In this document: in pieces, positions 14,533 through 57,740 of the stretch | Position numbering within the stretch: the stretch's first letter is position 1 | Layout of the letters: each line of letters opens with the position of its first letter | Origin: Calditrichota bacterium | Lineage (GTDB): Bacteria > Calditrichota > Calditrichia > RBG-13-44-9 > J042 | NCBI GenBank assembly: GCA_013150955.1 | Contig: JAADJD010000024.1 | Span: forward strand, 1-64,000 | Length of the DNA: 64,000 nucleotides | Direction: 5' to 3' | Notes under the pieces: generated by a model | Database searches by the model: none | What the model was told of the DNA's origin: nothing | Seen by the model: only the letters and a program-made list of their open reading frames with translations | Position numbers and translations under genes: made by a program

Positions 14533-15402
14533 TTATTGATATCGACTTTCGTTTTTGATCATGTCGATTTCATACAATGCTGCCTGTTTCCAGTTGCGAT
14601 CGCGACTGGCCTTTTCGTAGTACTGAATGGCCAGCTGTTTCTGGCCCCGCATCTTGTACACTTCACCCAAACCAAAATTGGCCGCCGCACGAATTGCACT
14701 GGATCGGGCCAGCTTGACCGCCTGCTTATAGGCATTCTCCGCATCCGATAACTTCTTCAGGTTCAAATAGGCATCGCCCAAACGCAAATAGGTATCGGCC
14801 TTGCTGGAAGCCTTCTTTTCATATTGCAGGGCTTTCTGCAATGCGGCAATAGCCTGGGTGTATTGCTTAGTTTGCAGGTAAACAATTCCCAGATTTTCCC
14901 AGGCCCGGCCATAAGTGGTGTCGATTTCCACCGCTTTCTGGAAATAATCGCGGGCTTTCAGGTATTTTTTCTGTTTCAGGTAGACATACCCGATGCCCCA
15001 CAGAGCCTTCACTTCCTTTGGATTGACCTGCAGAGCCGCGTTGTACGTGTTCAATGCCGCATCATATTTTTGCATCTGGGTCTGCAAAAGCCCCAGAGCC
15101 GTGTACGCTTTGGAATAATTCTGATCTTTTTCAATGGCCATCTGGTACGCCTTCTCGGCGTTTACATAATCTCGCATGCGTTTATATGTAAGACCCATGG
15201 CGTAATAGGCAACGGCCAGATTGGGATCTTTCTCAATGGCTTCTTTAAATTTGGCCAGGGCCTCTTCGTATTTCCCCTTTAACATTAACGACTTGCCCTC
15301 ATTGTAGGCCATTTTTGCCTCGTTTGCGGCATCCTGCGCAATGGCCGAGACAAAGAATACAACGATTAACCCCACAATTGCCAGGAAACGAAACCCTTTC
15401 AT
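14533..15402 (-). CDS. Exported TPR-repeat protein
   Basis: 289 residues. The signal peptide (LAIVGLIVVFFVSAIAQ) is followed by at least six tetratricopeptide repeats covering the rest, with the usual 34-residue rhythm (AKFKEAIEKDPNLAVAYYAM, YVNAEKAYQMAIEKDQNYSK, and so on). Such proteins are periplasmic or membrane-tethered scaffolds; the partner is unknown. A strong AAGGAGGTG ribosome site lies 5 bases upstream of the ATG. It sits between efp and rpsU on the same strand with a gap of about 107 bases after efp, so the two may be co-transcribed. Confidence 0.88.
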   Translation of the reverse strand: MKGFRFLAIVGLIVVFFVSAIAQDAANEAKMAYNEGKSLMLKGKYEEALAKFKEAIEKDPNLAVAYYAMGLTYKRMRDYVNAEKAYQMAIEKDQNYSKAYTALGLLQTQMQKYDAALNTYNAALQVNPKEVKALWGIGYVYLKQKKYLKARDYFQKAVEIDTTYGRAWENLGIVYLQTKQYTQAIAALQKALQYEKKASSKADTYLRLGDAYLNLKKLSDAENAYKQAVKLARSSAIRAAANFGLGEVYKMRGQKQLAIQYYEKASRDRNWKQAALYEIDMIKNESRYQ

Positions 15403-15509
15403 TCAATCACCTCCTTTTATTGAAATGCGAATTTAATTTTATTCTCAATTTTTGTCAATGGGTTCAACGTTTTTTATTTACGATTCCTTTCTTCAGTTCC
15501 CGGATCAAA

Positions 15510-16073
15510 TCACTTTGCCCGATCCAGATACTTTCCATCCCGGGTATCCACCCGTATCACATCGCCCACTTCGATGAAGGGGGGTACCTGGGTTTGCAAG
15601 CCGGTTTCCAGCGTTGCAGGTTTATAGGAGCTGGACACCGTCGCCCCTTTCAAATTGGGTTCCGTTTCCACAACCTTTAATTCCACTGCGGCAGGCAGCT
15701 CCACCCCGACCGGCTTGTTTTCATGAAATTGAATCTGCACCACCGTTTCCGGCATCAAAAAATAAACGGCGTCGCCCAGCATCTCCTTATTCAGATGAAT
15801 CTGTTCGTAGGTTTCCATATCCATAAAATAGTAATCATCCCCATCCTGGTACAGGTATTGAAATTCCCGGCTAATGAGGGTCGCTTTTTCAACAGGTTCA
15901 TCGGGACGAAAGCGATGTTCGGCATTGGTGCCATCGGATAACCGTTTCATTTTTACCTGCATCAAGGCCTGTCCTTTACCCGGGGTAACATGAACCGCTT
16001 CGGTGACCCGATACAGGTCTCCCCGATATTCAATGACCATTCCCTTACGCACTTGAATCGCCTTAATCTTCAT
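15510..16073 (-). CDS. efp: Translation elongation factor P
   Basis: 187 residues, standard length. The first KOW-like domain carries the loop HVTPGKGQA with Lys33 at the tip, the residue that in other bacteria is lysylated, hydroxylated or otherwise modified. The two OB domains follow, ending in DVIRVDTRDGKYLDR. EF-P relieves ribosome stalling at polyproline. A Lys rather than Arg tip argues against the EarP rhamnosylation route. No modification enzyme gene is in the window. Confidence 0.97.
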   Translation of the reverse strand: MKIKAIQVRKGMVIEYRGDLYRVTEAVHVTPGKGQALMQVKMKRLSDGTNAEHRFRPDEPVEKATLISREFQYLYQDGDDYYFMDMETYEQIHLNKEMLGDAVYFLMPETVVQIQFHENKPVGVELPAAVELKVVETEPNLKGATVSSSYKPATLETGLQTQVPPFIEVGDVIRVDTRDGKYLDRAK

Positions 16074-16216
16074 GATCGTGTCATCCTCACCATAATTTTT
16101 CGCAAGTTAAAATTTAATTTTCCATCCCAAAAAATGCAAAATGTTTGTCAAAATATTAACCCAACTTTCATATGAATTCGTAATGTTCCTCAAGAATTTC
16201 CCGGAATAAACTTAAA

Positions 16217-16550
16217 CCCAGATTAAGCAATAGCCTACGAATGACACGAATGAACACCAATAAAACAAATAAACCCAAATAATGCGTTAAACCACGAATC
16301 ACGCGAATGAATTCGAATAATATCAAAAAAAGAGCGAATATATCCGGGAAAACATTTTATCCTGATAGAATCAAGTGTATTCTATTATTTTTATTGGTGT
16401 TTATTCGTGTAATTCGTGGTTTTAATGCATAATCTGGGATAAAATACATTGGATTGTGTCTGGATGAAAATGTGTTCCAGGGTTTATTAGCGATTTTGTA
16501 GATATTTTTGGGTTTCATTCGCGTGATTCGTGTTTATTGCATAATTTGGG
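16217..16550. mobile_element. Family B element interrupted by a second family B element
   Basis: The outer copy runs 16217-16273 and resumes at 16439-16550 (left arm CCCAGATTAAGC, right end TTGCATAATTTGGG). The inner copy is 16274-16438, 165 bp, in the opposite orientation, starting CCCAAATAATGCGTTA and ending TAATGCATAATCTGGG. ATAAA stands directly on both sides of it (16269-16273 and 16439-16443). Uninterrupted copies elsewhere (for example near 36,710) read AATAAAATACATTGG across the site, so the duplication is accounted for. Confidence 0.85.
16274..16438 (-). mobile_element. Nested family B element with 5-bp target duplication
   Basis: The inner copy described in the preceding entry. Its arms are imperfect inverted repeats of about 46 bases, its ends are CCC and GGG, and it has no coding capacity. 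This is the clearest evidence that the family moves. Confidence 0.85.
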
Positions 16551-16717
16551 TTTATTTTCTGGATGCCGCATTCCGGCAGACGCGGGACAGGCAAACCAGG
16601 CATGACAAGGGGGGTGGATACTGCATTCCCACAAAACGCGGGACTCCGTCAGGAATGATAATTGTCAATTACTATTTCCAAAATTACACGTTACCAGCTA
16701 CCAGCTGCTAAATTCTA

Positions 16718-16788
16718 CCCAGCACACAGTTTTGACTAACTATATTCTATATTCTAAATTCTAGATTCTAATGAAACTATGTGCTGGG
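16718..16788. repeat. 71-bp element with 15-bp inverted ends
   Basis: CCCAGCACACAGTTT (16718-16732) and AAACTATGTGCTGGG (16774-16788) are inverted repeats matching at 14 of 15 positions. The space between is an A+T-rich run of TATTCTA/ATTCTAA motifs. The rest of 16551-16717 holds only short G+C-rich patches such as GCGGGACAGGC and no gene. The element sits just after the 3' end of the Patescibacteria-like gene. Confidence 0.6.
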
Positions 16789-16819
16789 CTATATTCCAGA
16801 TTCTAAATTCTAAATCACT

Positions 16820-18064
16820 CTACAAATCACAACAGTATATTTGATTATTGGAGCTATTATACCCCGCCATAAATTTACCATCACTACACTGGGTAGCGCT
16901 TACCCAGCCGCAATTGGATGGCTTATTATTATTTGCCACTAAATCATCATGGATAATGGTTTGAGTCGGTTCGTTTGTGGCTGGTGAGCCGGCAAACTCT
17001 ATTTTGGGAAACCAATCTGTTGTATTTGAATCAGTAACTTTCTGACACCGGACCTCTTCTACATACTGAACCCCATAACAATCGCCTGTAGTAGATTCCA
17101 AAACCGTATCACCACTATCGCATTGCGCGTCAACGGCAATAACTTTTTCACCCGGTGGACAAGTAGACCCGCCCCAATCACTACAAGCATACGGATTGTC
17201 AGATGTGCAGAAAGTATAATCTACACCACAAAAGTCGCAATCTGCGTCCTTACATTCTTGCTGAGTGGGATAACACGATGCCACAGCAGAAACTGAAGGA
17301 ATGAAAAATATCTTATTTAAAATACCTGCTAATGAATAGGAAGAACCATTTTCCACAGACGAAGCCAACTTGGACTTTTGAGACTGAGAAACAGAGCCAG
17401 TATCCCTACAGCTACAACTTCCTGACCGCCAATAAGTAACAGTGGATTGCACCAGAGAAGTTTCATAGTGTTCAATAGCATTTTTGTTAAACCGCAATCC
17501 ATTGTTCAAATAAAATTCTTGCGGAGTTATCAATGTGCCAGCAGCAAATTGGAGGTCCTCATGCAGCAACAAATTTCCACCTTTCACCTCAAGCATCGCA
17601 CTAGGAGTTTCTCCACTACTTAGTCCTATTCCAACCCTGCCAATTGGATCTCCATACCTTGTGCCCCCGATAACAATTAACCCTGAGGTGGAATTGGTGC
17701 CTGATACATCAACCTTTACATCTCCCTTTACATCTAACATAGACTGTGGCACCTCATTGTCAGGAAATCCAATCCCGACTTTGCCTTTTAGTTCACCAGT
17801 CTGACTATCAAGTCCCCCCAACACAATCAGCCCGGATTCGGCGTCGCCGGTAGAATTAGCTGTAATACCACCATAAATTTTTGCCCAACTATCTGCTTCC
17901 AATGCAGGATTTAAAAAAGTCGGATCACTTCTTAAAGTACTTCTCCCTAAAACATTATAAACATCAAAATAAACTAATCCACCTGCCAGCAGTGCGGTAA
18001 ATAAAGAACCAATGAAAAAGTACAGCCATTTTTGATCTTTGAAATTTAGCTTAGGAATGCGCAT
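16820..18064 (-). CDS. Patescibacteria-like surface protein, one membrane anchor, Cys-rich tail
   Basis: 414 residues. A single membrane helix near the start (YFFIGSLFTALLAGGLVYF) is followed by repeats of the form VGIG....PSAMLEVKGG and VGIG....PQSMLDVKGD, then a hydrophobic patch (AGILNKIFFIPSVSAVA) and a tail with many cysteines (CKDADCDFCGVDYTFC and others). From memory, VGIGTTxPxxxLEV strings behind a short anchor are characteristic of predicted surface proteins of Patescibacteria (CPR); they also occur in phage tail fibres. Codon and base composition are visibly A+T-richer than neighbours, and the flanks are A+T-rich minisatellite-like text. I infer horizontal origin. Function unknown; adhesion is a guess. 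Confidence 0.6.
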   Translation of the reverse strand: MRIPKLNFKDQKWLYFFIGSLFTALLAGGLVYFDVYNVLGRSTLRSDPTFLNPALEADSWAKIYGGITANSTGDAESGLIVLGGLDSQTGELKGKVGIGFPDNEVPQSMLDVKGDVKVDVSGTNSTSGLIVIGGTRYGDPIGRVGIGLSSGETPSAMLEVKGGNLLLHEDLQFAAGTLITPQEFYLNNGLRFNKNAIEHYETSLVQSTVTYWRSGSCSCRDTGSVSQSQKSKLASSVENGSSYSLAGILNKIFFIPSVSAVASCYPTQQECKDADCDFCGVDYTFCTSDNPYACSDWGGSTCPPGEKVIAVDAQCDSGDTVLESTTGDCYGVQYVEEVRCQKVTDSNTTDWFPKIEFAGSPATNEPTQTIIHDDLVANNNKPSNCGWVSATQCSDGKFMAGYNSSNNQIYCCDL

Positions 18065-18189
18065 ATATTTGAGTTAATTTTGCTTGTTTATATTATACCA
18101 TAGTAAAATCAAAATTCAAAATTCAAAAGTCAAAAGTACAAGTCAAAAGGCAAAATTAGTAATTAGTAATTAGTGGGCAGTAGATTCTA

Positions 18190-18231
18190 AACAAAAAAAT
18201 CCCCTTCACCATCCATAGTGAAGGGGAATGA
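18190..18231 (-). terminator. Intrinsic terminator after the Ig-domain lipoprotein gene
   Basis: On the minus strand CCCCTTCAC, loop, GTGAAGGGG is followed by ATTTTTTT. It lies 13 bases past the stop codon at 18244. The stem is perfect. Confidence 0.85.
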
Positions 18232-18243
18232 TTTTATGAAAAT

Positions 18244-20592
18244 TTAGTTCAAAGGAGCTCCAGTATCCGCATCAAAAATGTAAATTTTATTAGAACGAGG
18301 ATACGGAAAAAGAACATACATTTTGCCGTTATAAAAAACAAAATCCTCTACTCCATTAGAAGTCATATTCCAATCAATTGTTCCATCAGATAAGACTTTA
18401 ACAGGAGTATTGTGGACACTGTTCCCGTAGTAAACACTACCATTATATGCAACCATACGAGTTCCATCATCACCAATCACAGAAGTGTTGTTTGTGACCC
18501 TCTGAAACCATAAAAAGGAAGCGGAATTTCCATTATCATTATATGAGGCAATCCCATCATATACCCAGCTCATTCCTTTACCATAACCACCACCTATATA
18601 GACAATATTATTCACGCGGTCAACAGCAACTGCACCAACAAATTCAGCTGCAGAATCCGGTCCATTGAACTGTACACCCCAAATCAGATTGTAATTAGCG
18701 TCATACTTGGCGATAAACCAATCACTACTAACTGCAGTTCCAAATAAATCTTCGAAAGTCTCACCACCCACATAAATAAAATCTGCAAAAGCCACCACGC
18801 TTAATATTTTAGAATTATTAGTACCAATATCTTGAATATGAACAACAGATCCATCAGTCGTAGAAAACTCATATAAACGGCCGTTCGGAATAAATAAACG
18901 ACCATCCTCCCCAACCTCAAGTTTAAAAGCGTTAGAAGTAAAATCCGGACTCGTCCAGACGATATTACCACTACCATCTAATTTAGTTATATTGCTTGGA
19001 GCGCCCCCCATTGGGTCATACTGCGCCGTCAGTACATACACCTCATCCTGCCCGCCTCCGCTGTAAACAGCGATGTCGCGAGAGTAATAAGCGTATTCTG
19101 GAAGTCCTTTAAACCAAACTATTCTACCGTCTGGATTAAACTTCATTACTACCCATTTATCAGGACCAGCAGCTAATGTGTAAATATAACCTTCATCAGT
19201 AATTGCCAGACGCTTCATTCCACCATAAGGATTTATCCACCGCGGCGTAGTATCTGCCTGAGTGGTGAAAGAGAAAGAATAAGTAGACATCGGATTGCCA
19301 GCAAGGTCGGTAATGCCAGAGAGTGTAACGGTATAAGTGGTTTGCCAATCCAGGCTGTCCGGGACAAAACGTGCAGTATCATTATCCACCATATAATTAC
19401 CATTCACATTGCCGTCAGCACCGCTAACCGCAAAAGTTGTGGCATTAACGCTGGCTGGATCAATGGGTTCGGAAAATTTTACCCAAATATCAGTATCCTT
19501 TGCCACACCAGTGTCGCCATCTGTCGGATAGGTTTCCAGCACCTCGGGGGAGATATCATCCGGCTTGACAGCAAAGGAAAAAGTGAAGTCTTGTGGTAGA
19601 TGATTGCCAGACAAATCCGTAACCGCAGTAGTGATGGTAGCTGTATAAGTCGTATTGAAAGTCAAGGGATCTTGCGGTGTAAAGGTGAATTCAGCCCCGG
19701 CTATAGATTGGGAACCTGGCACAAAATTATTATTTTCATCTTTAAGAGAAAAAGCGTCTGTTGGCACATTTACCTCTTCAGAAAATACCACCCGAATCAC
19801 TACTTCGCGCTCAACTCCGGTAGCACCATTTTGAGGATTGGTGCTTACCACCTGCGGCGGCGTCACATCTGGCTCTTTTTCTGTGGTAAAAGAAAAAACA
19901 AAATTCTGCTGCAGGTGATTGCCCGCCGTATCCGTCACAGCCGTGGTCAAAGTACAAGTGTAAGTGGAGTTGTAATCCAGAGAATCCTTGGGGGTGAACT
20001 TAAAAGTAGAACCACTGCTTACAGGAGTGCCGGAGATGACTAAATCACCTTTGGTCATTTTAAAACCTTGTGGCGGCACCACTACTGCTTCCGAAAAGTT
20101 TACAACGATAGTAGTCATCACAGCCACATTTTGAGCGCCATTTGGCGGAACAGTAGAAACTACAGTTGGCGGAATAGTGTCCGGAACAACAGGAGCATTT
20201 TCGGTGGTGAAAGTCCAGCTGTAGTCCTCTTTCATCGCATTGCCGGCAAGATCTTTCACCCCAGCCTTGACTGTTGCGCGGTAGGTGGTGGAGTAGGCAA
20301 GGGTAAGGAGCGGCTGCCAGTGTACCCGCTCCCTTTCAATTGTTAACTCACCTGCAATTTCTCCATTAGAACCCTGCACAATAAGAACAACCGAATTGCC
20401 TTGAATCTCTTCGCTAAATTCCACAATAATCACAGAATCCACCTCCACATTCACGCTATTTGGCAACGGCCAAACTCGAACCACACGAGGAGGATCCTTG
20501 TCAATCCGGGACTCATCCACAGGCTGCTTGCATCCAAACAAAGTAATCAACAAGAATAATATGAACCTAGACCTTCTAAATGCTTGATTCAT
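18244..20592 (-). CDS. Large lipoprotein with four Ig-like (Big_5) domains and a propeller-like end
   Basis: 782 residues. I chose the ATG at 20592 because AAGGAA lies 8 bases upstream and it places a lipobox LFGC at Cys21. Four repeated Ig-like domains follow, each with the PPxVVSTxPxNGAxxV opening, an FSEEV strand, a TYTxTLTTAVTD strand and AGNxL...FSFTT closing. Residues from about 470 on look like a beta propeller reading blades (VVMKFNPDGRIVWF, ITKLDGSGNIVW, FIAKYDANYNLIWGVQF). It is probably outside the cell, attached by lipid. Composition is A+T-rich like the previous gene. Big_5 domains are also common in host-type phyla, so its origin is less clear than that gene's. Confidence 0.8.
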   Translation of the reverse strand: MNQAFRRSRFILFLLITLFGCKQPVDESRIDKDPPRVVRVWPLPNSVNVEVDSVIIVEFSEEIQGNSVVLIVQGSNGEIAGELTIERERVHWQPLLTLAYSTTYRATVKAGVKDLAGNAMKEDYSWTFTTENAPVVPDTIPPTVVSTVPPNGAQNVAVMTTIVVNFSEAVVVPPQGFKMTKGDLVISGTPVSSGSTFKFTPKDSLDYNSTYTCTLTTAVTDTAGNHLQQNFVFSFTTEKEPDVTPPQVVSTNPQNGATGVEREVVIRVVFSEEVNVPTDAFSLKDENNNFVPGSQSIAGAEFTFTPQDPLTFNTTYTATITTAVTDLSGNHLPQDFTFSFAVKPDDISPEVLETYPTDGDTGVAKDTDIWVKFSEPIDPASVNATTFAVSGADGNVNGNYMVDNDTARFVPDSLDWQTTYTVTLSGITDLAGNPMSTYSFSFTTQADTTPRWINPYGGMKRLAITDEGYIYTLAAGPDKWVVMKFNPDGRIVWFKGLPEYAYYSRDIAVYSGGGQDEVYVLTAQYDPMGGAPSNITKLDGSGNIVWTSPDFTSNAFKLEVGEDGRLFIPNGRLYEFSTTDGSVVHIQDIGTNNSKILSVVAFADFIYVGGETFEDLFGTAVSSDWFIAKYDANYNLIWGVQFNGPDSAAEFVGAVAVDRVNNIVYIGGGYGKGMSWVYDGIASYNDNGNSASFLWFQRVTNNTSVIGDDGTRMVAYNGSVYYGNSVHNTPVKVLSDGTIDWNMTSNGVEDFVFYNGKMYVLFPYPRSNKIYIFDADTGAPLN

Positions 20593-20683
20593 AGCCGGAT
20601 TTCCTTGTCGATTCACCATTTTTTTTCACAATTTACATTATTCTTTATAATAATCAAAAATCAGTAACACCTACTTAATTCTT

Positions 20684-20884
20684 CCAGATTATGCATTCGC
20701 CTACGAATGACACGAATGAACCCAGCTTATGTATTAGCCTACGAATTACACGAATGAACACAAATAAAACAAATAAAGTACATTGGATTGTATCTGGATG
20801 AAAATGTGTTCCGGGGTTTATTCGCGATTTTGTAGATATTTTTGGTTTCATTCGCGTGATTCGTGGTTTAATGCATTATTCGGG
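20684..20884. repeat. Family B: solo left arm plus complete copy
   Basis: A lone left arm (20684-20720, CCAGATTATGCATTCGCC) runs straight into a complete copy (20721-20884, CCCAGCTTATG to ATGCATTATTCGGG, 164 bp). No target duplication is visible. The complete copy shows the consensus best: inverted arms of about 46 bases around a core containing CTGGATGAAAATGTG. Confidence 0.85.
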
Positions 20885-20981
20885 TTTATGTTGGATGGCG
20901 TCATGAACAATGCATTAACATGGAACAATCCATGCTATTCCGTTAGAACTAACCTTCGATTGGTATCCTTCAAAAACCAAA

Positions 20982-21005
20982 CGCCCTGCTTTCAGCAGCA
21001 GGGCG
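20982..21005 (-). terminator. Possible terminator hairpin
   Basis: CGCCCTGCT/AGCAGGGCG stem with a six-base loop; on the minus strand it is followed by TTTGGTTTTTG. It is 800 bases past the nearest minus-strand stop codon (21803), so the link is uncertain. A second G+C-rich hairpin with an A+T tail follows at about 21036-21076. Confidence 0.4.
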
Positions 21006-21121
21006 ACACATTGCAAGGACGTGGGATTGGGTTCAATAAAATAAAGCCCCCCTCCCACTCCTATGGCAGGGGCTGTGTGGTGGTAGGCAAGTGAAACCGG
21101 ACTCTCCCCCTCTCGTTCCCC

Positions 21122-21153
21122 ACCGGATCGGTGTGGGGCAAAACCGATCCGGT
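21122..21153. other. Perfect 11-bp inverted repeat
   Basis: ACCGGATCGGT and ACCGATCCGGT are exact reverse complements separated by 10 bases. No T run follows on either side and no gene starts nearby, so I cannot assign a role. The rest of 20885-21290 has no gene. Confidence 0.5.
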
Positions 21154-21291
21154 CCTCCCTAATGGTTTCTACATTCAATATACCAAACGTCCCCTTCCTT
21201 CCGCTAACACACAGGTTTCAAATATTAACACAAATGTTACATCTTCCACCGTGACCGCCATCAGACCGGCCAGGAAAACAGGGTATCCAAT

Positions 21292-21684
21292 CCAGATTAT
21301 TCATTTGCTTACGAATTACACGAATGAACACCAATAAAAACAATAAACCTGTTGTGCTATTTTGGGATGAAGCAAGCATTTAGAAAAACCGTTGAAACGG
21401 TTAATCATCAATCCATTACGTTTTCCATTCTCCTGGCTGAAGCCAGGAGTTAATGTAAATTCTTATTCACTAACACCAAGATTTGTCTGATTGGACAACT
21501 CCTATAGTAACAATAATTTATAGAACCATTTCAACAGTTTGGGTTGTTTCATTAGCACATCGGGTAAATAATAAAATTCGTTTGATTATATCCGGACAAA
21601 AATATGTGTACCCGGATTTATTCGCTTTTTTGTTGATATTTTTGGTTTCATTCGCGTGATTCGAGGTTTAATGCATTATTTGGG
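21292..21684 (+). mobile_element. Family B element split by a family C element
   Basis: Left part 21292-21347 (CCAGATTATTCATTTGC to CAATAAA) and right part 21565-21684 (TAAATAATAAAATTCG to TTATTTGGG) together make one ordinary family B copy. An additional family B right arm continues at 21685-21732. Confidence 0.75.
21348..21564. mobile_element. Family C element, 217 bp, inserted in family B
   Basis: Ends CCTGTTGTGCTA and TAGCACATCGGG form a 12-base terminal inverted repeat with two mismatches. TAAA is repeated on both sides (21344-21347 and 21565-21568). Inside are two hairpins, AACCGTTGAAACGGTT and CTCCTGGCTGAAGCCAGGAG. There is no open frame of note. It looks like a small non-autonomous transposable element. 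Confidence 0.65.
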
Positions 21685-21802
21685 ATTATTTGAATTCATT
21701 CGCGTGATTCGTGGTTTAACGCATTATTTGGTTTTAAGGGATGTCTTCCACACTGTGAGGTCACAGGTAAAGAGGGTCTTTTGACAGGGGGGAAAGATGG
21801 AC

Positions 21803-24800
21803 CTACTGATAACGTTTCCCATACTCCGAAGGGGACACACCAAACTCCTTCCGAAAACAGCTGGCAAAATATGATAAATTGTTAAACCCAACCTCATACG
21901 CCACTTCGGAGACCGTGCCCCATCCTTTTTTCAGTAAATCGGCTGCTTTATGGATTCGCAAGCGCCGAATAAATTCTGATGGCGACAGGTTTGTTAACGC
22001 CTTGAGTTTTCGGTGCAATTGAACCCGACTTAATCCCATTTCCCGGGCAAATTCCGTTACCCCAAAATGGGCGTCTCCCAGATGCTGTTCAACCATCTGA
22101 CATGCCCGCCGTAAAAATCGTTCGTCCAGAGAACTGACGGCGGCTTCACTCAATGCCAGAGGAGACATTTTTTGAAATTTCTCCCGAAGACGCTGGCGTT
22201 GTTCAATCAGGTTGCGAACCCGCGCGCGCAACACTCGGGTGCTGAATGGTTTCACCACATAATCGTCCGCCCCAATATCCAATCCCCGAATTTTACTTTC
22301 GTCCGATCCCCGCGCCGTTAGCAATATCACCGGGATATGACTGGTTCGCTCATCCTCTTTTATGTGTTGACAAAATTCGAATCCGTCCATCTGGGGCATC
22401 ATCACATCGGAAATGATCAAATCTGGAATTTTTTCCTGAGCAATGCTCAGGCCCTCTTTTCCATTTTCGGCTTCCAGCACCCGGTATTGGTCGACCAACA
22501 TGTCGCGAATATACTCGCGCATCTCTTCATTATCTTCTACAATTAAAATGATTGGCCTGTCCACCCGGGTGGTAAATTGGGCCTTTGGCCCCTCTTTTTC
22601 GGTAGTTTCCACCAGGTCAGGCTTTCCATTTCCATACGATTGCTCCTCGGGAATTGCAGGCGGTTCGGGTTCCTCTACAATCTCTTCTGGTTTAAAATGA
22701 TCGCAACCCAGCGGGATCAGAACGGTGAATCGACTTCCCTGCCCAACCTCACTCTGCACCCGAATCTGTCCACCATGCCGTTCAATCAATTCTTTACTTA
22801 ACGCCAACCCGATGCCCGTCCCCGTGCTGGTAAAATATTTATTGGATTCTACCTGATAAAACCGTTCAAAAATACGTTCCAGCTGATCCTGCGGGATCCC
22901 GATGCCGGTATCCTGAACTTCTACAAAGGCATATGCGTGCCCATTTTCCTGGATTTGACCCACCCGCACCCAAACCTGTCCGCCATCTTTGGTAAATTTA
23001 AAGGCATTGGACAGCAGATTATTGATGATTTTTTCGAACTGCTCCCTGTCCACATACACTTCGATGGGTTCGTTCCACAACTGCACGTCCAGCTGGATGT
23101 TGCGTTGCATGGCCAGGCTTTCGAACGCGTTAGCCAGCCCCTTGACCATGCGATTTAATTCGGTCTTTCGCACACGCAATTGCAATTGCCCCGCTTCCAG
23201 CTTCGACAAATCCAGCAGCTGATTGATCAACGAAAGCAGCTGGAGCGCATTTTGTTTCATTTTTTGATACAGCGGGCGGGGATCGCCACGAAATTCCCCG
23301 GAAATCAATTGATCCAATGGTCCCAGGATAAGGGTCAGTGGGGTTCGGAAATCGTGGGAAATATTGGCAAAGAAACGCGACTTGGCCTGATCGATTTCCA
23401 GCAATTTTTGTTTTTCAATCCGCTGAATTTTCAGGTCATTTTCCAGGCGCACTTTATTGACCTCAAAGCGCACAATACCGTAAATGGCCAGCAGGACACC
23501 AATCACATAAGCCAGATATGCCCACCAGGTCTTCCAGGGCGGGGGATCCACCCGGATGCGAATTGCCACCCCCTCTTCATTCCAGATGCCATCGTTGTTG
23601 GACCCCTTCACCCGAAAGACATAGGTTCCCGCTGCCAGATTGGTGTAGGTGGCAAAGCGTCGATGCCCGGCATATACCCAGTCTTCGTCAAACCCCTCCA
23701 TTTTGTAGGCGTATAAATTTTTTTCCGGAAAAGTGAAGTTCAGGGCAGCAAATTCAAAGGAAAAAACATTGTGTTTATAAGAAAGATGAATTTCATCCAG
23801 AAATGGAAGTGCGCGAGGAAGAATGGAATTTACCCCAACCTGCTGGGGCTGGTTGAAAATGAGAAATTTGGTGAAAACAACCGGTGGAATGTATTGATTA
23901 TCTCGAATGGCTTCTGGAAAGAAAAGATTCAGTCCCTGTGCTCCCCCAAAATACATGCGACCACTTTGACCTCGATGGTAGGCCGCCTGATTAAATTCAT
24001 TGCTTTGTAATCCATCGCGAACGTCGTAATTGCGAAAAGTACGGGTGTCGGGATCGAAACGAGACAGGCCATTGTTGGTGCTCATCCATAAAAACCCCTG
24101 ATCATCTTCCAGGATACCATAGATCACCTCATTGGGGAGCCCATCCTTTTCCCGGAAATGAATGAATCTTCCAGTGCGCCGATCCATTAAATTCAGTCCT
24201 CCCGTGGTACCAATCCAGAAGCGCCCGCGGCTATCTTCGTAAATAGACAGTACGATATCCGAACTCAATGTGGTCACGTCATCAGGCCGGTGACGATATC
24301 GAATGAATTGGTTATTTTCGGGATCATATCGATTCAGTCCTCGAATCGTTCCTACCCAGAGGGTTCCCTGGCGATCGATATACAGTGCCCTGACGATGTT
24401 GTGGCTTAAGCTTAAAGAATCATCCGGATCGTGATACCACACGGTAAACGATTCCGTTGCCGGATCGAATCGATTTAAACCGTGGGCCGTTCCCAACCAG
24501 AGGTAACCGGCAGAATCCGGACAGATGGCCTGTACCCGATCATCACTCAAGGAATGAGGATTTTGCGGATTATGCCGCCAGTGGCGCACGGTCCCGGTAC
24601 GCGGGTCCAGCCGATTTAGCCCCCGGGAAGTTCCCAGCCATATGTACCCGTCCGCTGTTTCCGATATCGCCCAGATGCGATTATTGCTCAAGCTGTTGGG
24701 ATTAGAAGGATCGTGTTTCCAGACCCGAAAGCGCCGGGATTCGGGATCGAAATAATTCAATCCTCCGCCATTGGTTCCAATCCACACGCCGCCACGGGAA

Positions 24801-25972
24801 TCTTCGTAAATGGCCCAGACATCATCATGACTCAGCGTGTTTTCCGCATGGGGATCTCGATACCAGTGTTCAAATTTCCGGGCATAGGGGCTGTAGTAAT
24901 TCAATCCCCCACCCCGGGTACCAATCCAGATACCGCCCGCACGGTCTTCAAAAATGGACCAGATGTAATCATGACTAATGCTTTTGGGATTTTCTTTGTC
25001 CCGCAGAAACCGCTGAAACATTCCCGTGCGGGGATCAAAAATGTTTACTCCGCCACCGTACGTGCCAATCCACAACTTGCCCTGTCGATCTTTATGGATT
25101 GCAGGAATGGTTCGGTAACTTAAAGCGTTGGGATCTGCGGGATTACTCTTCCAGTGCTGGAATTCTCCGGTCCGGGGATCAAAACAATCCAGTCCGCCGG
25201 TCGTTCCCAGCCAGAGCTTTCCGGATTCGTCTCGAAAAATTGCGATCACACGATTGCTACTTGGGGAATTGGGATTCTGAGGATCGTGCTGCCACTGGGT
25301 AAACTTTCCGGTGGAGGGATCGAAACGAATCAGGCCCCCGCCGCGGGTGCCGATCCACAACACCCCTGAGGGATCCCACGCCAGTGCCCAGATGCGGTTA
25401 TGGGGAAGACTGGCAGGATCCGAGGGATCATGTTGCCAGACGGTAAATTTCTGGCTGTCGGGATCAAAACAATTTAACCCCCCGCCGTCGGTACCAATCC
25501 AGATTTTCCCATCAATATCCAGCGCCAGGGCTCGAATGGTGTTGTAGCTCAGGGTATTTTCCACCCCAATGCGTGACACCCAGTGATCGAACCGATCCCG
25601 TTCGGGATCGTAGCGATTCAATCCCCCATTGCGGGTGCCAATCCAGATGAATCCCTGGTGATCCTGTATGAGGGCATAAACGTAATTGTCCGACAGGGAA
25701 TTGGTATCGCCCGGAATGTGTTTAAATACACGAAATTCATAACCGTCAAAGCGATTCAACCCATCCTCGGTACCAATCCAGATAAATCCCTGACGATCCT
25801 GCAAAATATCCAGCACAGAGCTCTGAGACAGTCCCTGTTCCTGAGTAAAATGAAAAAATTCGTATGACTGGGAAAATCCATTAAGAGGCAAGAAGATAAG
25901 GCAGCAAACAAAAATGAAAGAAATATATTTTGCCACGTGAAGAATGCTTACCCCAAAGCTTCTTCCTATCAT
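21803..25972 (-). CDS. One-protein hybrid two-component system (propeller, Y_Y_Y, kinase, receiver, AraC)
   Basis: 1389 residues. Signal peptide (1-35); about 14 Reg_prop blades with repeated IWIGTxGGGLNxFDP motifs (40-690), which should form two propellers in the periplasm; Y_Y_Y domain (about 730-808); one membrane helix (about 816-835); DHp with His873 (ISHDFRTPL); HATPase with DTGIGIP and GTGIGL (975-1090); receiver with Asp1189 (IISDVMMP) and Lys1241; AraC helix-turn-helix (1290-1389). This is the layout of Bacteroides-type hybrid regulators, which sense a ligand, often an oligosaccharide, and switch nearby genes. No carbohydrate-use locus is adjacent, so the target is unknown. The ribosome site is weak (AGGGG, 11 bases away). 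Confidence 0.95.
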   Translation of the reverse strand: MIGRSFGVSILHVAKYISFIFVCCLIFLPLNGFSQSYEFFHFTQEQGLSQSSVLDILQDRQGFIWIGTEDGLNRFDGYEFRVFKHIPGDTNSLSDNYVYALIQDHQGFIWIGTRNGGLNRYDPERDRFDHWVSRIGVENTLSYNTIRALALDIDGKIWIGTDGGGLNCFDPDSQKFTVWQHDPSDPASLPHNRIWALAWDPSGVLWIGTRGGGLIRFDPSTGKFTQWQHDPQNPNSPSSNRVIAIFRDESGKLWLGTTGGLDCFDPRTGEFQHWKSNPADPNALSYRTIPAIHKDRQGKLWIGTYGGGVNIFDPRTGMFQRFLRDKENPKSISHDYIWSIFEDRAGGIWIGTRGGGLNYYSPYARKFEHWYRDPHAENTLSHDDVWAIYEDSRGGVWIGTNGGGLNYFDPESRRFRVWKHDPSNPNSLSNNRIWAISETADGYIWLGTSRGLNRLDPRTGTVRHWRHNPQNPHSLSDDRVQAICPDSAGYLWLGTAHGLNRFDPATESFTVWYHDPDDSLSLSHNIVRALYIDRQGTLWVGTIRGLNRYDPENNQFIRYRHRPDDVTTLSSDIVLSIYEDSRGRFWIGTTGGLNLMDRRTGRFIHFREKDGLPNEVIYGILEDDQGFLWMSTNNGLSRFDPDTRTFRNYDVRDGLQSNEFNQAAYHRGQSGRMYFGGAQGLNLFFPEAIRDNQYIPPVVFTKFLIFNQPQQVGVNSILPRALPFLDEIHLSYKHNVFSFEFAALNFTFPEKNLYAYKMEGFDEDWVYAGHRRFATYTNLAAGTYVFRVKGSNNDGIWNEEGVAIRIRVDPPPWKTWWAYLAYVIGVLLAIYGIVRFEVNKVRLENDLKIQRIEKQKLLEIDQAKSRFFANISHDFRTPLTLILGPLDQLISGEFRGDPRPLYQKMKQNALQLLSLINQLLDLSKLEAGQLQLRVRKTELNRMVKGLANAFESLAMQRNIQLDVQLWNEPIEVYVDREQFEKIINNLLSNAFKFTKDGGQVWVRVGQIQENGHAYAFVEVQDTGIGIPQDQLERIFERFYQVESNKYFTSTGTGIGLALSKELIERHGGQIRVQSEVGQGSRFTVLIPLGCDHFKPEEIVEEPEPPAIPEEQSYGNGKPDLVETTEKEGPKAQFTTRVDRPIILIVEDNEEMREYIRDMLVDQYRVLEAENGKEGLSIAQEKIPDLIISDVMMPQMDGFEFCQHIKEDERTSHIPVILLTARGSDESKIRGLDIGADDYVVKPFSTRVLRARVRNLIEQRQRLREKFQKMSPLALSEAAVSSLDERFLRRACQMVEQHLGDAHFGVTEFAREMGLSRVQLHRKLKALTNLSPSEFIRRLRIHKAADLLKKGWGTVSEVAYEVGFNNLSYFASCFRKEFGVSPSEYGKRYQ

Positions 25973-31205: not shown

Positions 31206-31569
31206 TCAGATTTTGCATGAACCACGAATGACGCAAATAAGCACGAATAAACCCAGATTGTGCATTAGAACCACGAATAACACGAATGAACACAAATAAA
31301 AATAGAAAAATACATTGGATTATGTCCGGATGAAAATTTATTTCAGGGTTTATTCGCGATTTTGTAGATATTTTTTGGGTTTCATTCGCGTGATTCGCGG
31401 TTTAACCCAGATTATGTATTAGCCTACGAATTACACGAATAAACACAAAAGAAATAATAAAATACGTTTGACTCTATCTGGATGAAAATGTGTTCCGGGA
31501 GATATTAACGATTTTGTGTATATTTTTCGGATTCATTCGCGTGATTCGCAGCTTCATGCATCACCAAGG
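31206..31569. repeat. Family B, two copies in tandem plus a partial arm
   Basis: A partial arm (31206-31250), then a copy from 31251 (CCCAGATTGTGCATTAG) whose right end stops at GGTTTAA (31404), where a third copy starts CCCAGATTATGTATTAG (31405) and runs to about 31569. It fills the whole gap between two convergent genes. Confidence 0.8.
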
Positions 31570-36879: not shown

Positions 36880-37010
36880 AACAAGTCTCCTTCCGCAAAG
36901 CGGAAGGAGACTACCGACTCTGGAGAGTCGGGCTACATGGATAAAACGCAGGCATAAAGCCCGCGGCTACCATTCTTTACTGCCAACTGCAAACTGCCAA
37001 CTGCCTACTG
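36880..37010 (+). repeat. Family A fragment in forward orientation
   Basis: One d hairpin (AAGTCTCCTTCCGC..GGAGAC), one c hairpin (CCGACTCTGGAGAGTCGG) and a half a/b hybrid, followed by ACTGCCAACTGC repeats. It faces opposite to the array at 35,645-36,655. Confidence 0.8.
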
Positions 37011-57354: not shown

Positions 57355-57740
57355 ATTTTTTGCCGCGGGTTTTATCCAGTTGGCAGTGGGCAGTTTGCAG
57401 TGGGCAGTGGTAGCCGCGGATTTTATCCAGTTAGCAGTAAGCAGTAGGCAGTGGGCAATGGTAGCCGCGGGCTTTATGCCCGCGAAATAACACCGACTCT
57501 GGAGAGTCGGGTTACACTGGAAAGCGCAGGCATGAAGACTGCGCCTACCTGGAAAATGGAGTGGCAAACAACCGGTAACCGCGGGCTTTACGCCCGCGGG
57601 ACAACCGGCCAATCCATGGGAAATAGGAATAATCTGGCTGCAAAATAAACCAAGTCTCCTCCCGCTTCGCGGAAGGAGACTACCGACTCTGGAGAGTCGG
57701 GTTACATTAGAATGCGCAGGCGTGAAGCCTGCGCCTACCC
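57355..57740 (+). repeat. Family A hairpin-chain repeat, locus 4
   Basis: Starts with CAGTTGGCAGTGGGCAGT-type minisatellite (57,379-57,460), then b, c, a, b, d, c and a hairpins in the same order and orientation as at 1-570. Modules again end in CTACC or TTACA. It sits directly upstream of the oxidoreductase gene; 57,741-57,850 has no clear promoter. Confidence 0.85.

Follow-up and report, generated by a model that had tools for sequence, protein, structure and literature searches.

The Calditrichota bacterium assembly GCA_013150955.1 carries, within the 64,000 nucleotides of contig JAADJD010000024.1 analysed here (the window), a minus-strand gene, P0001 (16,820–18,064), whose 414-residue product resembles surface proteins encoded at pilus loci of Patescibacteria, also known as the candidate phyla radiation (CPR). 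On balance, we favour the view that P0001 is a CPR-type surface-protein gene residing in a non-CPR genome, probably as a result of horizontal transfer. This reading follows from a C-terminal module and an overall architecture shared with Patescibacteria proteins, the absence of the module from the 39 other host-phylum genomes searched, and the codon usage of the gene. The repeats that surround P0001 are ordinary for this genome and are not evidence of foreign origin.

A surface protein with relatives in Patescibacteria

The window comprises bases 1–64,000 of a 103,524-base contig (C6) in a 4.07-Mb genome with an estimated completeness of 99.73% and contamination of 0.37%. Two minus-strand genes, P0002 (791 residues) and P0001, lie between a gene for EF-P (15,510–16,073) and one for a hybrid sensor kinase (21,803–25,972), names that were read from the translations without a family search. 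P0001 begins with a predicted hydrophobic helix (residues 8–40; 17,945–18,043), a probable membrane anchor whose core, residues 11–30 with a predicted local distance difference test (pLDDT) score of about 80, is all that was modelled with confidence in an otherwise poor single-sequence structure prediction (mean pLDDT 37.5). Two repeats follow, VGIG...MLDVKG (residues 96–114; 17,723–17,779) and VGIG...MLEVKG (residues 144–162; 17,579–17,635), and then a Cys-rich region; the protein has 16 cysteines, every one beyond residue 216. An earlier annotation made from the letters alone, hereafter the sequence-only reading, had described VGIG repeats behind a short anchor, and this description held. 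The C-terminal module (residues ~373–414; 16,823–16,948) runs up to the stop codon, the last ~40 residues reading NCGW...C..GKFMAG...IYCCDL-stop. P0001 has no match in Pfam or NCBIfam, the module bears no Pfam name, and in the PDB the module profile had no match while P0001 had a single chance one.

We searched for relatives in 379 Patescibacteria genomes, the phylum of G060 (locus L033, Candidatus Levybacteria). With whole P0001 as query, 13 matches at E≤10 fell in 12 of these genomes, of which we took only that in G397 as real; two in G202 reflect generic VGIG text, and the alignments led us to judge the remaining ten as chance (L110 gave no alignment on rerun). The G397 match pairs P0001 residues 375–414 with the C-terminus of a 798-residue protein, the two being 58% identical as aligned by the search itself. 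A two-row profile then led to module copies in G153 and G340, likewise anchored at the protein end. At E≤1 this profile matched in 46 of the 379 genomes: G397 was a built-in row, G153 and G340 were kept, and the others were dropped, mostly without a closer look (eight loci were inspected), because the frames were short or interrupted by stops or the matches were partial. A four-row profile found a further copy in G449, which was not among its rows, at E 3.6e-8. The module occurs in two of ten genomes of the order of G397, and all copies extend to the stop codon, ending CC-x-[LI] or CA-x-L.

In the reverse direction, a profile built from the four CPR copies, with P0001 left out, places P0001 at the top of 5,590 host frames (E 3e-5; runner-up 0.45) and scores the P0001 tail above all 5,000 of 5,000 shuffles of it. 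The same profile found nothing better than E 0.2 in 5,568 frames of the named loci sharing a heptamer-array text described below (598 kb; cyanobacterial, Bacteroidota and other) or in 1,253 frames of host-phylum loci. A search of genome contigs with P0001 confirmed nothing.

The likeness extends to the order of parts. The proteins of G340, G397, G153 and G449 share with P0001 the end-anchored FMAG...CC module and a hydrophobic N-terminus, and those of G340 and G449 also share VGIG...L-V-G repeats. The 157-residue G340 protein runs from a hydrophobic N-terminus through a PPGGNVPAPLN segment and one VGIG...LDISG repeat to the module, and P0001 follows the same order of N-terminal helix, repeats and module; in the 1271-residue protein of G449 the module is accompanied by two VGIG motifs, and the proteins of G397 and G153 are long repeat proteins without a strict VGIG motif. 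The gene pilM (PF11104) adjoins the module gene in G397 and G153; in G449 a pilM lies nearby (86% identical by tblastn) together with pilN-like and pilO-like neighbours, labels that lack Pfam support. We did not find pilM in the G340 stretches compared, so it stands at three of the four CPR loci. P0001 differs from these proteins in lacking the PPGGNVPAPxN-like segment that follows the anchor in G340 and G153, in its own Cys-rich middle, in having no recognised pilM neighbour (not a strict difference, as none was seen in G340 either) and in being encoded by a 4.07-Mb non-Patescibacteria genome, with same-order relatives of 1.7–8.6 Mb. No pilus gene beside P0001 was recognised by eye among window open reading frames (ORFs) of at least 150 residues, a survey made without a family search of the neighbours. 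As a separate observation, two neighbouring CPR proteins (L172, 14,590–15,717, and a 378-residue frame of L199) end in ACCF and ACCK, and Cys-rich C-terminal tips may be a wider habit of these Patescibacteria pilus loci.

Absence from sampled relatives and CPR-like composition

Among 40 genomes of the host phylum, including the window's own (G000), the four-row profile found the module in G000 only (E 8.4e-18) and in none of the 39 others at E≤0.01, the best of them giving a 17-position fragment at E 0.03. Whole P0001 matched itself alone in its own genome and nothing at E≤0.01 in 59 other related and outgroup genomes; it was not found in G001, of the same genus, or in G002 and G003. The VGIG motif did not occur in a 350-kb sample of the genome that carries P0001, nor in 84 kb of other host-phylum loci. 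In G001, synteny on the EF-P side extends to window position 16,157 and then gives way to other genes, starting with one read as a nitroreductase. On the kinase side the shared sequence picks up again at 21,039, on a different contig, and 16,158–21,038 is missing. The stretch at which it resumes (21,039–21,250), intergenic and beside the sensor kinase, shows 79% identity to G001 across 215 bases; it is possibly a conserved RNA or leader. An Rfam scan of 15,400–21,900, which includes this stretch, gave no match.

As the sequence-only reading had noticed, both genes differ in composition from the rest of the window. Our reference was a set of 215 host genes, each 200 codons or longer, drawn from 20 genome stretches and the window. 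P0001 has a GC content of 0.42 and a third-position GC content (GC3) of 0.336, against a host mean GC3 of 0.587, and only 4 of the 215 host genes are equally low; for P0002 the GC3 is 0.381, with 7 host genes equally low. A codon log-likelihood ratio contrasting the host genes with 133 genes from Patescibacteria stretches gave +0.216 for P0001, a value reached by 2 of the 215 host genes and with 40 of the 133 CPR genes as low or lower, and +0.157 for P0002, with 4 host genes as high and 15 CPR genes as low or lower. The codon use of P0001 is therefore CPR-like, within the range of the 133 CPR genes. Absence from close relatives (G001–G003) and foreign composition, two of the marks of a recent transfer, are both seen in P0001.

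The neighbouring gene and the surrounding repeats

P0002 (18,244–20,619, minus strand), an A+T-rich gene, encodes a probable lipoprotein, its start lipoprotein-like with a lipobox judged by eye, that contains four Big_5 (Ig-like) stretches (PF13205, E 1.3e-88). These stretches are like those of other Big_5 repeat proteins, whereas the C-terminal half (residues 446–791; 18,244–19,284) found no match in the searches made and has a GC3 of 0.31 against 0.44 for the Big_5 half; P0002 may be a fusion gene. Its matches in 7 of 59 other genomes are at the Big_5 level only, no relative was confirmed in viral contigs and nothing was found in 340 kb of CPR loci. P0002 thus has no CPR signature beyond its A+T-richness, its Big_5 relatives being generic, and it may or may not have been transferred together with P0001. 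Between the two genes, a 12-bp hairpin followed by a T-run (18,200–18,227, minus strand) is the likely terminator of P0002. A promoter-like site for P0001 (18,092–18,119, minus strand) consists of TTGAAT, 16 nt and TATAAT preceded by TG, and is a candidate only, because the region has 15 such sites against 17.7 in shuffles, no enrichment.

The first hexamer of this candidate falls inside one of the period-7 arrays that lie on both sides of P0001: the A+T-rich AAAGTCA (7.4 copies) and AATTAGT (three copies) upstream (18,105–18,174), and TACCAGC, CTATATT and CTAAATT downstream (16,692–16,815), the latter with a 15-nt inverted repeat (16,718–16,732 and 16,774–16,788). Individual arrays stand at 16,740, 16,789, 18,105 and 18,154. 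These arrays, which the sequence-only reading had taken to set the region apart, are indeed present but are not distinctive, since the genome has other period-7 arrays, one of them equally A+T-rich, next to ordinary genes. Tandem Repeats Finder at score 36 reports 8 period-7 arrays in 414,527 host bases, two of them at P0001 (16,740 and 18,105); two so close together exceeds the host average but was noticed after the fact. Further arrays lie at 36,979–37,010 and 57,377–57,477 of the window and, in other stretches of the genome, at L152 10,103–10,213 and L158 9,493–9,546 and 9,835–9,873; the A+T-rich array at L158 9,493 adjoins a gene read as a small heat-shock protein. These further arrays are built from unrelated heptamers (ACTGCCA, CAGTGGG, GGATTTC, TTTTTGA and GGCAGTT), so that the period is constant and the unit varies.

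An exact 24-mer from the arrays occurs in 82 stretches. Of the 80 loci listed, going by their titles, 9 carry Patescibacteria or CPR names, one is Omnitrophota, one is called only 'bacterium' and 69 are cyanobacteria or Bacteroidota; identical 24-base heptamer text is thus common to cyanobacteria, Bacteroidota, Patescibacteria and Omnitrophota (loci L027–L106). We accordingly reject these minisatellites as a mark of CPR, the 24-mer lying mostly in cyanobacteria and Bacteroidota and the host having arrays of its own. Nor do the counts give reason to see heptamer arrays as general promoters, an exact TATAAT lying within 45 bases downstream in 3 of 84 arrays and upstream in one of 84. Period-7 repeats of patchy distribution, with mixed heptamers such as the TAACTGA of Beggiatoaceae, Cyanobacteria and Bacteroidetes, have been described (MacGregor 2015, PMC4679880). 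Those arrays and ours are alike in being intergenic and in mixing several heptamers, and one Gramella case described there stands beside an ORF possibly acquired horizontally; the arrays here differ in their heptamers (AAAGTCA, AATTAGT and CTAAATT) and in lying on both sides of P0001.

Family B, a composite, partly self-complementary dispersed repeat of the host, also stands on both sides, on the left at about 16,191–16,565 (16,181–16,580) and on the right at 20,683–20,899 (about 20,900). The sequence-only reading had seen these copies as mobile brackets. The copies are there; the bracketing carries no meaning, because a sample of 350,527 host bases has the family at 79 places, or about once every 4.4 kb (about 2.25 per 10 kb), and chance alone would be expected to put a copy on either side of a 4-kb segment. 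We therefore reject the idea of an island bracketed by Family B. The window alone has 15 places, a further example being 31,223–31,561. Family B was not found in the CPR stretches or the three G001 pieces compared; short matches in G001 (contig C15) fall at Family B positions, and the family is therefore not unique to this genome.

Discussion

Some arguments first offered for foreign origin have thus fallen away. The description of a CPR-like protein in an A+T-rich island stands as regards the protein; 'island' is too strong a word, the repeats are not evidence and P0002 has no CPR link. Similarly, the case for transfer from CPR retains the shared module and architecture, the absence from 39 host-phylum genomes and the codon use, and loses the arguments from minisatellites, Family B and P0002.

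Several points weigh against even this reduced case. Whole P0001 has no match in the 379 Patescibacteria genomes at E≤0.001, and secure homology covers only ~40 of its 414 residues, too few alignable positions for a tree. No near-full-length relative was found, and hence we name no donor. The module is scarce in CPR as well, present in 3 of 379 genomes, so that its absence from 39 host-phylum genomes is not significant by itself, and other A+T-rich bacterial groups are barely sampled. The CPR copies were reached by way of P0001, which makes the comparison biased rather than blind. In G001 the neighbouring gene order differs as well, and a clean empty site could not be demonstrated there. The codon comparison that the sequence-only reading had proposed does place P0001 with CPR, only 2 of 215 host genes being as extreme; its signal is weak once GC3 is regressed out, with modest residuals (z 1.8 for P0001 and 2.3 for P0002), which means that most of it is plain A+T-richness.

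These points lend some room to the view that the module and architecture are wider than CPR and that P0001 is a fast-evolving gene, either from another A+T-rich group or specific to the host lineage. Homology is secure for the C-terminal module alone, the module is scarce everywhere sampled, VGIG repeats are generic fibre repeats, and a few other host genes are equally A+T-rich. Such an origin nevertheless sits poorly with the lack of any VGIG motif in the host and host-phylum samples, with a module count of zero among the 39 other genomes and with the absence of module-like matches in the 598 kb of heptamer loci that bear cyanobacterial, Bacteroidota and other names, and we regard it as rather unlikely. 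A chimeric assembly or scaffold, in which a CPR fragment with P0001 was joined into the host contig at A+T-rich repeats, is a serious rival given that the gene sits among short arrays and Family B repeats and has a CPR-like composition. It would, however, require a pair of joins no more than 4.9 kb apart on a contig of 103,524 bases, in a genome of high completeness and low contamination. The Family B copies on the two sides show 91.7% similarity over 121 bases at the best length, poor material for a misjoin at the level of reads, and the flanks of P0001 between them show no similarity to the host sample, so that an identical repeat is seen at neither join; we judge a chimera distinctly unlikely. 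That P0001 is a tail-fibre gene left by a prophage we consider very improbable: VGIG-type repeats are found in phage fibres too, but P0001 has no match in 50,697 phage records, neither it nor the module profile found anything confirmed in IMG/VR, a single PHROG match falls below threshold (E 0.04) on the N-terminal helix, and visual inspection of the listed ORFs near the gene revealed no phage genes.

Returning to transfer of a CPR-type gene, which we prefer, we infer the transfer and its direction, as well as the surface location, fold and adhesive role of the protein. A surface-fibre gene of the kind found at Patescibacteria type IV pilus loci would have been gained horizontally, probably after the split from G001. 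The N-terminal helix would hold the protein in the membrane, the VGIG repeats and Cys-rich region would form an extended stalk, and the conserved C-terminal Cys module, tied by disulfides, would be the tip that touches a partner surface. A protein of this type would work alongside the pili in attachment of the donor. Here, P0001 would be a one-gene transcription unit without recognised pilus genes beside it, which suggests that the gene either arrived recently and is perhaps idle or encodes a membrane-anchored fibre that stands on its own. A more specific scenario, which we think improbable, is that an attachment fibre of an epibiotic Patescibacterium was recently passed to its own host or habitat partner, where it is expressed from the heptamer-borne promoter and might compete for the parasite's attachment site or serve as a decoy for it; the route from epibiont to host is speculation.

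Published work offers some context. In a Saccharibacterium, a type IV pilus has been shown to have a part in binding the host (PMC12206443); an attachment role for P0001 is plausible in this light, although that study is no test of it. Gene exchange between Patescibacteria and other phyla has been described, and for one ABC-transporter gene Patescibacteria were judged the likelier donor, to Nanoarchaeota (PMC12455944), so that transfer out of Patescibacteria is not unheard of. Our literature search turned up no publication describing a surface-protein gene of CPR type outside its own phylum, though this does not prove that there is none.

The analysis carries a caution, namely that heptamer minisatellites and dispersed repeats near a gene do not argue for CPR origin. 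A further outcome is the recognition of a C-terminal module, not named in Pfam, as a mark of surface proteins encoded at the pilus loci of several Patescibacteria. If our reading of P0001 is true, it would represent gene flow out of Patescibacteria into a larger bacterium, in a gene for cell–cell contact, and transfers of this kind would offer a clue as to which organisms are in physical contact.

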